DNA from: an uncultured Bacteroidota bacterium
GTDB lineage: Bacteria; Bacteroidota; Bacteroidia; B-17B0; Aurantibacillaceae
NCBI GenBank assembly: GCA_903893815.1
Contig: CAITNS010000040.1
Coordinates: forward strand, 124,001-188,000
Direction: 5' to 3'
Length of the DNA stretch: 64,000 bases
Each line of letters opens with the position of its first letter. The stretch's first letter is position 1. Made by a program: the position numbers and the translations under genes. The notes below the pieces were generated by a model. It did not search any database. It had not been told where the DNA came from and saw only the letters and a program-made list of their open reading frames with translations. This document shows, piece by piece, positions 42,356-43,548 of this stretch.

Positions 42356-42828
42356 TTTTTAATTGTTTAATAACCTCGTAAATTTAGGCAGTGGATTGAT
42401 TTAAACAAATTAAATTTGCATTATTTTTAATGAAAATTGAAAATAATTTAACCACAATTTGTGATTTTATTTTAGCTAATTATTATCCTAACTTTTATTG
42501 AATGTTAAGCGCAAAAAAACTAAATAAAAAAGCTTGTAGAAATAAAATAATAAAGTGGAATTAATAAGAGAAAAGACACTCTTAAAATAAATCTCTGTGA
42601 TTCTCTGGAGGCTTTGATGCTTAAGTACTTATGTTTTAAAAATGTCATAAAACTAGGGTTTTAGCTTATTTATTAATCGCAAGTAAACATAAAAAGCATC
42701 TATACAAATCACTAGATGGCCAGCCCAGCCATCTATTTATAATACAATAGAATACAACCGATAATTCCCGCCCCTCAAATACAAGCTCTTTGAACAAATA
42801 ACATCAAGATAAAATAAACAAAAATAAA
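42356..42828. other. Intergenic stretch with no gene
   Basis: AT-rich, no credible ORF. It holds the gltA promoter (42379-42409), a hairpin at 42713-42735 (TAGATGGC paired with GCCATCTA), and a degenerate CTCTGTGATTCTCTG stretch near 42595 that resembles part of another common Bacteroidota repeat. Confidence 0.7.
42379..42409 (-). promoter_or_regulatory. Citrate synthase promoter
   Basis: On the minus strand TTTG (42406-42409) lies 19 nt from TAAATTTA (42379-42386), one mismatch from TAnnTTTG. The gltA ATG follows about 24 nt downstream. Confidence 0.5.
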
Positions 42829-42854
42829 AAAGCCCTGAATCACTGAAGGGCTTT
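42829..42854 (-). terminator. Terminator after the tRNA-Met remnant
   Basis: AAAGCCCT and AGGGCTTT arms around a 10-nt loop, followed on the minus strand by a T-rich run. It has the same layout as the terminator of the intact tRNA-Met. Confidence 0.8.
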
Positions 42855-42855
42855 G

Positions 42856-42919
42856 TAGTGAGAAGGAGATTTGAACTCGTGTCCGCCAGCTGGCGGATAT
42901 GAATCAATGCTCTAACCAA
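42856..42919 (-). pseudogene. tRNA-Met(CAT) remnant carrying the dispersed palindrome
   Basis: The 3' half (CACGAGTTCAAATCTC, then TTCTCACTA) matches the intact tRNA-Met at 43198-43271 except for one T-stem base; the CAT anticodon loop and part of the D-arm (TTGGTTAGAGC) also match. The segment after TTCATA, normally positions 38-47, is replaced by TCCGCCAGCTGGCGGA (42882-42897). The acceptor 5' side and part of the D-arm are missing and replaced by the GIY-YIG ORF. Confidence 0.8.
42882..42897. repeat. Dispersed palindrome TCCGCCAGCTGGCGGA
   Basis: Perfect 16-base palindrome identical to the core of the copy at 10108-10123; it sits between the anticodon loop and the T-arm of the tRNA-Met remnant. 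Confidence 0.85.
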
Positions 42920-43154
42920 TAACATTCCAAATAAATTCTCTACCCTTAGCTGTTTTTAATTCTTTTTCTCTTTTCAAAGCACTTGCTTTGTCTTTAAAAC
43001 TTTCTGAATGCACTAATTTCCAAGGTCGATATCTTAAAGTATATCCTTTAGTTTCCAACTCATTATGAGCTAATAACCTCTGCTCTATATTGGCAGTATA
43101 GCCAACGTAAATTTTATTGAATTTTTCTGAGTATAATGCGTAAACTGTAAACAT
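42912..43154 (-). CDS. GIY-YIG nuclease family protein, tRNA-linked
   Basis: An 80-residue protein, the size of single-domain GIY-YIG nucleases. Visible motifs: VYALYS for the GIY strand, YVGYT for the YIG strand, then IEQRLLAHN with the catalytic Arg and the HN pair, and ALKREKELK with the metal-binding Glu. It lies on the minus strand between an intact tRNA-Met plus terminator (43163-43196) and a tRNA-Met remnant. Its last codons and stop (GGT TAG) are the D-loop sequence of that remnant, so the reading frame is closed by tRNA DNA. Its ATG follows the terminator T-run directly, with no promoter of its own visible. It may be a homing-type or structure-specific endonuclease; activity is inference. 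Confidence 0.8.
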   Translation of the reverse strand: MFTVYALYSEKFNKIYVGYTANIEQRLLAHNELETKGYTLRYRPWKLVHSESFKDKASALKREKELKTAKGREFIWNVIG

Positions 43155-43162
43155 AGGTTCAT

Positions 43163-43196
43163 AAAAAAGCCTGCTCCTAAATTAAGAACAGGCTTT
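43163..43196 (-). terminator. Terminator of tRNA-Met
   Basis: AAAGCCTG and CAGGCTTT arms followed on the minus strand by a T-run; begins two bases after the tRNA discriminator base. Confidence 0.8.
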
Positions 43197-43197
43197 G

Positions 43198-43271
43198 TAG
43201 TGAGAACGAGATTTGAACTCGTGACCTTCGGGTTATGAATCCGATGCTCTAACCAACTGAGCTACCTCACC
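43198..43271 (-). tRNA. tRNA-Met(CAT), elongator type
   Basis: A 74-nt cloverleaf: acceptor GGTGAGG with TCTCACT, D-arm GCTC AGTTGGTTA GAGC, anticodon arm TCGGA TTCATAA CCCGA (anticodon CAT; A31-C39 unpaired), T-arm ACGAG TTCAAAT CTCGT, then discriminator A. CCA is not encoded. The ordinary D-arm and paired first acceptor position argue against the initiator tRNA. A CAT anticodon could also belong to lysidine-modified tRNA-Ile2, which cannot be excluded by eye. Confidence 0.9.
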
Positions 43272-43305
43272 AAATATTTTTATTTTAAAGAACTATGAAC
43301 TCCTG

Positions 43306-43321
43306 TCCGCTAGCTAGCGGT
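43306..43321. repeat. Palindrome variant, unit 1
   Basis: TCCGCTAGCTAGCGGT, one base from a perfect palindrome of the TCCGCYAGCTRGCGGA family. Confidence 0.8.
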
Positions 43322-43393
43322 TATGAATCCGATGCTCTAACCAACTGAGCTACCTCACCAAATATTTTTATTTTAAAGAACTATGAACTCCTG

Positions 43394-43409
43394 TCCGCTA
43401 GCTAGCGGA
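43394..43409. repeat. Palindrome variant, unit 2
   Basis: TCCGCTAGCTAGCGGA, perfect palindrome, placed directly after the anticodon-loop sequence TTCATA on the minus strand. Confidence 0.85.
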
Positions 43410-43421
43410 TATGAATCCGAT

Positions 43422-43437
43422 TCCGCCAGCTGGCGAA
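43422..43437. repeat. Second palindrome in unit 2, replacing the D-arm
   Basis: The core CGCCAGCTGGCG is the CCAGCTGG subtype, as at 10.1 and 42.9 kb. It stands where the other units have GCTCTAACCAACTGAGC. Confidence 0.85.
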
Positions 43438-43481
43438 TACTCTCACCAAATATTTTTATTTTAAAGAACTATGAACTCCTG

Positions 43482-43497
43482 TCCGCTAGCTAGCGGA
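43482..43497. repeat. Palindrome variant, unit 3
   Basis: TCCGCTAGCTAGCGGA, identical to the unit 2 copy at 43394. Confidence 0.85.
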
Positions 43498-43548
43498 TAT
43501 GAATCCGATGCTCTAACCAACTGAGCTACCTCAACATTCTTTAAAAAT

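Follow-up and report, generated by a model that had tools for sequence, protein, structure and literature searches.

The window, a stretch of 64,000 nucleotides from an uncultured Bacteroidota bacterium, carries next to its tRNA-Met gene a unit of about 340 bp that consists of a GIY-YIG ORF, a palindrome and a spare piece of the tRNA gene. Our analysis suggests that this unit is probably a minimal selfish element of tRNA genes, which would spread and amplify through nuclease breaks and recombination and would leave the host with one working tRNA. Comparison of sequences established the anatomy of the unit, its recurrence at different tRNA isotypes, the presence of empty and decayed sites, its tandem amplification, purifying selection and the coupling of nuclease clade to palindrome class; that the unit is mobile is deduced from these comparisons.

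All features of the tRNA-Met/GIY-YIG locus lie on the minus strand (Table 1). An earlier note, made from the window alone, had placed a GIY-YIG ORF between an intact tRNA-Met gene and a tRNA-Met remnant. This arrangement was confirmed with ARAGORN for the tRNA, with Pfam for the ORF (E = 1.9e-17) and with a local alignment for the remnant, which scored 69 against tRNA-Met, compared with at most 19 for shuffled sequences. Its other descriptions of the locus were equally accurate: the ORF starts right after the T-run of the tRNA terminator, with a gap of 8 nt; its final codons, GGT TAG, coincide with GGTTAG in the D-loop of the remnant, which thus supplies the stop codon; and the remnant has a terminator of its own. 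Three 5' fragments of tRNA-Met upstream of the intact tRNA had been overlooked.

Table 1. Features of the tRNA-Met/GIY-YIG locus in the window.
Feature	Position	Strand	Basis or remark
Intact elongator tRNA-Met (CAT)	43197..43271	-	ARAGORN
tRNA-Arg	43653-43579	-	ARAGORN
Intrinsic-terminator-like hairpin and T-run, between tRNA-Met and ORF	43163..43196	-	Sequence; T-run 43168-43163
80-aa ORF, single GIY-YIG domain, stop TAG from the D-loop of the remnant	42912..43154	-	Pfam
tRNA-Met 3' remnant, tRNA positions 16-75	42855..42919	-	Local alignment
Palindrome TCCGCCAGCTGGCGGA in remnant, in place of anticodon 3' stem and variable loop	42882..42897		Class A, Met nuclease clade
Terminator-like hairpin and T-run 3' of remnant	42826..42854	-	Sequence
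Three 88-bp tandem units without ORF: tRNA-Met 5' fragment, palindrome and AT-rich leader	43272..43535	-	Repeat search, family D1, spacing 88
Palindrome CCGCTAGCTAGCGG, 5' unit 1	43307..43320		
Palindrome CCGCTAGCTAGCGG, 5' unit 2	43395..43408		
Second palindrome CCGCCAGCTGGCGA, 5' unit 2, where the D-arm would be	43423..43436		
Palindrome CCGCTAGCTAGCGG, 5' unit 3	43483..43496		

The core of tRNA-Met has a single exact match in the whole genome, and the unit therefore adjoins a gene without a spare copy. In the remnant, ACCCGAAGGT has been swapped for the palindrome; the intact tRNA-Met beside the unit is unaltered. When folded as single-stranded DNA, the remnant was not unusual in stability (z = -1.5). 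Matches to CCGCNAGCTNGCGG numbered 6 in the window, against 0.25 expected, and 11 in the whole genome, against 0 for the reversed control; this excess is not due to chance. The terminator that precedes the ORF of the closest relative (L019) is nearly identical to that of tRNA-Met in the window. The GIY-YIG ORF is the sole gene of the unit, which has no integrase.

The palindrome-bearing tRNA 5' fragments upstream of tRNA-Met form tandem units that contain no ORF. Single ORF-less 5' relics with different palindromes were also found upstream of tRNA-Met in two relatives (L187 of G001, with CCCGATAGCTATCGGG, and L181 of G012). Such fragments look like non-autonomous forms.

The 80-aa product corresponds to the GIY-YIG domain of Pfam (PF01541), and no other Pfam domain was present. 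Y5, Y16, G18, R26, H30 and E63 were invariant among 21 aligned sequences of the family, and the AlphaFold2 model was confident (pLDDT 97.5). Together with the Pfam match, these results place the protein in the GIY-YIG superfamily, as defined by the fold and the catalytic Tyr, Tyr, Arg, His/Tyr and Glu. The nearest solved structures by sequence profile were BH0048 (1zg2, E = 1.1e-13), EF2693 (1ywl) and SLX1 (7wme). The best Foldseek matches were SLX1 structures (6seh and 7wme), and the nearest folds were SLX1 and UPF0213. The protein is similar in fold and sequence to SLX1 and to the single-domain GIY-YIG proteins of the UPF0213/URI type; it differs from them in being encoded at tRNA genes with remnants and palindromes, and it lacks the C-terminal zinc-binding domain of SLX1, the GIY-YIG fold filling all 80 aa. 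A group I intron endonuclease was considered and rejected, as the score against TIGR01453 (grpIintron_endo) was 20.4 bits for a cutoff of 56.05. Judging from its conserved residues and predicted fold, the protein is likely to be a DNA-cutting enzyme. SLX1 cuts branched DNA, an analogy that would make hairpin or cruciform DNA a plausible, rather than a proven, substrate of the nuclease.

A first search with the ORF gave matches in 70 of 100 relatives, and a profile (A1) built from 21 of these matches found homologues in 206 of the 295 genomes of the class. At an E value of 1e-15 or better, the profile matched 148 of the 296 genomes sampled across the phylum. About 150 loci were fetched from one class and yielded 199 GIY-YIG domains. 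An intact tRNA on the same strand lay within 200 bp of 121 of these domains; 56 more had tRNA-derived sequence within 300 bp, 20 had neither, and 2 were at contig edges, many of the surveyed genomes being draft assemblies with some matches at contig ends. Of the 197 non-edge domains, 177 lay within 300 bp of a tRNA or of sequence derived from one; because the loci were the top-scoring matches of a profile made largely of tRNA-adjacent members, these fractions hold for this lineage and not for all GIY-YIG proteins. By our estimate, tRNA-flanking windows make up far less than 1% of a genome. The adjoining tRNAs represented 19 anticodons, and a remnant of the same tRNA was found across the ORF at 100 of the 121 tRNA-adjacent loci. 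A fresh sample of 24 scorable loci outside the first set was assessed with identical criteria. It included 19 loci from other classes of the phylum, of which 18 had a tRNA within 200 bp and 17 had a remnant. Among the organisms that carry the unit are Pedobacter segetis, Marivirga arenosa (complete genome), Gracilimonas and Ignavibacterium.

The earlier note had suggested a search for such ORFs near tRNA genes. The homologues do adjoin tRNAs, and most have a remnant of that tRNA across the ORF, with a palindrome in the remnant. It had also held that homologues away from tRNAs, or in conserved operons, would speak against a tRNA-associated unit; these occurred only among distant relatives and not within the lineage. 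Paralogues in the window's own genome (L001, L002 and L004) and the proteobacterial relatives, from Alphaproteobacteria, were off tRNA genes. With regard to a phage or plasmid origin, only distant relatives were found, in Rhizobium phages and on one Azospirillum plasmid, and no neighboring tRNA was listed for the two that were examined, the gene table of the plasmid omitting RNA genes. On plasmid AZO_p3 of Azospirillum lipoferum (L301, 1489-1782), the distant relative lies between sufB and sufC in an Fe-S assembly operon. In the window's own genome, frames in or beside the L001 and L002 ORFs enter a common repeat that encodes FDSAQ, as in the end of the L001 ORF (...TPFDSAQGDKT). GIY-YIG ORFs of a sister group (L043 in G042:C64, and L157) lack a neighboring tRNA. 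On either side of the L043 ORF lies a longer palindrome that is interrupted (TTTAGCCCG..ATGGCATTG / CAATGCCATCC..CGGGCTAAA), a hint that GIY-YIG proteins and palindromes may be associated more broadly.

The unit occurs in two layouts. In the 3' layout, found in the window, the intact tRNA is followed by a terminator, the ORF and a 3' remnant (83 loci with a remnant of the same tRNA). The mirror 5' layout consists of a 5' remnant, the ORF and the intact tRNA (17 loci), and here the ORF often stops within the first few bases of the tRNA (TAG of TAGCTC, as in L032, L077 and L160). Over both layouts, the stop codon was in tRNA-derived sequence for 57 of 97 scorable ORFs, so that the overlap first noticed in the window recurs among the homologues. 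The spacer of the 3' layout had a median length of 46 bp, and a terminator T-run was present in 76 of 89 spacers. As deduced from the layout, expression is probably low and would depend on terminator read-through in the 3' layout and on the tRNA promoter in the 5' layout.

Two kinds of known elements have a related anatomy. Fungal mitochondrial mORFs occur in atp6 of Allomyces and in atp6, atp9, cox2 and nad3 of Glomus. According to the available part of the published account, a free-standing endonuclease gene (of the GIY-YIG type in Glomus atp9) enters an essential gene and supplies a new 3' end, and the native 3' end becomes a downstream remnant; that part does not mention a palindrome in the displaced end (PMC3630166), whereas one is found here. 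At the 83 loci of the 3' layout, as in mORFs, an endonuclease ORF lies between a complete host gene and its displaced native 3' end. The mORFs are larger and their hosts are mitochondrial protein-coding genes, in contrast to the tRNA gene and the 80-aa ORF described here. We know of no mirror 5' layout among mORFs. Integrative elements that insert at tRNA 3' ends restore a complete tRNA and leave a tRNA fragment at the opposite end. The present unit shares with them a complete tRNA and a fragment across the element, but it has no integrase, is only about 0.3 to 0.46 kb long, carries a palindrome in the remnant and is inserted on either side of the tRNA.

The gene order tRNA-Met, tRNA-Arg, dapD is conserved in the genus of the window, with gltA beyond, visible in the window and in G006. 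At this locus, the unit was present in G000, G007 and G008, as well as on broken contigs in G003, G017 and G019. It was absent from G002, G004, G005, G009, G010 and G013, which have a plain tRNA followed by a terminator. The first 18 to 22 codons alone were found in G015, where the ORF has decayed, and in G014, where it is cut by the contig end; G001, G006 and G012 have upstream tRNA relics only. Occupied and empty alleles, the mark of a homing element, are therefore both found at one locus within the genus. The proposal in the earlier note that tRNA fragment, palindrome and ORF form a mobile unit is supported by the empty and decayed sites of these sister species and by tandem arrays.

Such arrays were frequent among the loci. 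At L076 (G166:C9 904500-912000, on a 994-kb contig), one intact tRNA-fMet is followed by ten near-identical units of 457 bp, which contain the GIY-YIG ORF and a palindrome-bearing pseudo-tRNA. The dN/dS ratio was mostly 0.05 to 0.25 between array copies and 0.14 to 0.37 within the genus; distant pairs were saturated. Close copies are thus under purifying selection, and low dN/dS together with the turnover of copies indicates that the protein is maintained as copies come and go.

Tandem amplification is also known for SegB, a free-standing GIY-YIG homing endonuclease of T-even phages whose gene adjoins tRNA genes. As described in the available part of the report (PMC13096335), tandem repeats of tRNA and nuclease gene form in phage T6 in a nuclease-dependent manner, and there is microhomology between the tRNA 5' end and the nuclease 3' end. 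Both systems have a GIY-YIG nuclease beside a tRNA and tandem nuclease-tRNA arrays. However, SegB is phage borne, and a unit of palindrome and tRNA remnant is not described in that part of the report, whereas the units found here are chromosomal and tied to cognate palindromes. In phage T6, tRNA-Tyr is amplified in tandem in a SegB-dependent manner (PMC13096335, available part), which raises the alternative that the nuclease found here serves the host by promoting amplification or repair of tRNA genes, for example, against tRNA-cleaving toxins or phage. Long arrays and purifying selection on close copies would fit such a role. We nevertheless consider it very unlikely, because the arrays multiply the ORF and a dead, palindrome-bearing tRNA but not the working tRNA, and because the unit is patchily present, and also decays, even inside one genus.

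Strong palindromes, mostly perfect, were found in 70% of the remnant segments, compared with 4% of control windows taken from those loci (p = 1.5e-32). They were assigned to the classes TCCGNC (A), TCCCGA (B), TCACGC (C), CCTGCC (D) and others. On the nuclease tree, which was built from only 74 columns and has many weakly supported forks, the palindrome class, defined post hoc after the list of remnant palindromes had been seen, required 13 changes, compared with a mean of 53.8 and a minimum of 48 after shuffling. When each combination of family and anticodon was represented by a single row, 10 changes were needed, against 35.6 (minimum, 28). The association of the anticodon with the tree was looser (40 changes against 76.7; minimum, 72). 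Several classes can be present in one genome, each accompanied by a nuclease of its own (A, B and D in G299; B, C and D in G191), which argues that the class belongs to the element and not to the host. In the fresh sample, the nearest older protein predicted the palindrome class in 15 of 17 cases, class A dominating the sample, whereas it predicted the isotype in only 8 of 18 cases from the other classes of the phylum. These results suggest that nuclease and palindrome travel together and that the tRNA is exchangeable, its choice not being strictly set by the nuclease. The unit had been called tRNA-targeted; this is correct insofar as the units sit at tRNA genes, but the nuclease is more closely tied to the palindrome type than to the tRNA isotype.

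The same data bear on the possibility of passive accumulation, in which tRNA genes, as recombination hot spots, duplicate, pseudo-tRNAs gather common palindromic repeats and a GIY-YIG gene has hitch-hiked by chance. tRNA genes are indeed common integration sites, and the palindromes are found elsewhere too. However, the arrangement recurs in many families and over the whole range of anticodons, all 19 of them; palindrome class follows nuclease clade, with several classes coexisting in one genome; and close copies have a low dN/dS. Passive accumulation is already disfavored, and we give it hardly any credence.

Palindromes of the same classes were dispersed away from tRNAs (TCCGCC..GGCGGA and TCCCGA..TCGGGA), with 65 copies in G017, 124 in G034 and 103 in G031. 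The numbers per genome reached 65 for class A and 124 for class B, against 0 to 1 for the reversed control in those genomes. The palindromes may therefore have a life of their own. The window's own genome also contains dispersed palindromes (L007, L008 and L013-L017). Several of those in this genome and in G017 lie within terminators or other hairpins, and most of those in G031 do not. A constant location in hairpin loops was rejected, since outer arms of at least 5 were found at only 3 of 7, 5 of 15 and 1 of 15 sites.

In REP/RAYT systems, the gene of a small enzyme is coupled to a short cognate palindrome, copies of which are also scattered through the genome; the enzymes, the RAYTs, are Y1-HUH transposases. 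The pairing of an enzyme clade with a cognate, dispersed palindrome class is common to both systems. One could therefore suppose that the GIY-YIG protein acts primarily on the hairpin of its cognate palindrome and mobilizes palindrome-tipped segments to many sites, tRNA genes being a favored, stem-loop-rich niche and not the specific target. Such a role would account for the dispersed copies, for the better match of nuclease clade to palindrome class than to isotype and for the tandem units that palindrome-bearing tRNA fragments without the ORF form in the window. We regard it as unlikely: a hairpin-loop position is not a consistent feature of the dispersed copies, the nuclease gene itself remains at tRNA genes, and the enzyme is a GIY-YIG nuclease and not a Y1 transposase. 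Because the enzyme type differs, the element is not a member of the REP/RAYT family; moreover, its unit is built around a tRNA gene.

We therefore favor a selfish tRNA-gene element, with a unit made of a single-domain GIY-YIG nuclease gene and a copied part of a tRNA gene bearing a short palindrome. Guided by the palindrome, the tRNA gene or both, the nuclease would make a break; it would recognize or cut its cognate palindrome either directly or as a hairpin or cruciform. Repair of the break by recombination via tRNA homology would duplicate the unit, either into empty tRNA genes or as tandem repeats, a repair-driven copying proposed by analogy with free-standing homing endonucleases and phage SegB. 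After insertion, the host would keep one complete tRNA gene, and the displaced copy would persist as the palindrome-bearing remnant. Since the unit would bring its own tRNA part, one complete tRNA would always be left, and the insertion would thus be harmless. What counts against a selfish element is that the intact tRNA in the occupied state resembles an empty target and yet would have to escape further cutting, that the choice of tRNA is not strictly set by the nuclease and that palindromes of the same classes are dispersed away from tRNAs. Possibly, the palindrome distinguishes the element's own copy, either as the site to be cut or as one to be left uncut.

No published description of the element was found in the open literature, subscription papers and preprints being outside the scope of the search, and a 2006 study of the GIY-YIG superfamily named tRNA in another context only. 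We place the element with the free-standing homing-type selfish elements, as a variant of these, and see an even chance that it merits a separate class. We are also evenly divided on a broader proposal, namely, that minimal mobile elements of about 0.3 to 0.46 kb form a class that spans the phylum, in which each GIY-YIG clade has its own palindrome and tRNA genes serve as self-repairing landing sites in two mirror layouts; this class would be a GIY-YIG counterpart of REP/RAYT.

The unit appears to be among the smallest self-spreading bacterial elements, and if a class of tRNA elements with paired clades and palindromes exists, its members would be some of the smallest known autonomous elements. 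Because tRNA genes are essential and strongly conserved, an element that is harmless in almost any of them would have a very wide host range; half of the genomes sampled in the phylum have a homologue at the stringent threshold. The pairing of nuclease clade and palindrome class offers, for very small nucleases, a recognition code that can be tested directly. Some of the tRNA pseudogenes and short scattered palindromes of Bacteroidota may stem from the element, which would also provide a chromosomal parallel to the SegB-driven amplification of tRNA loci in phages.
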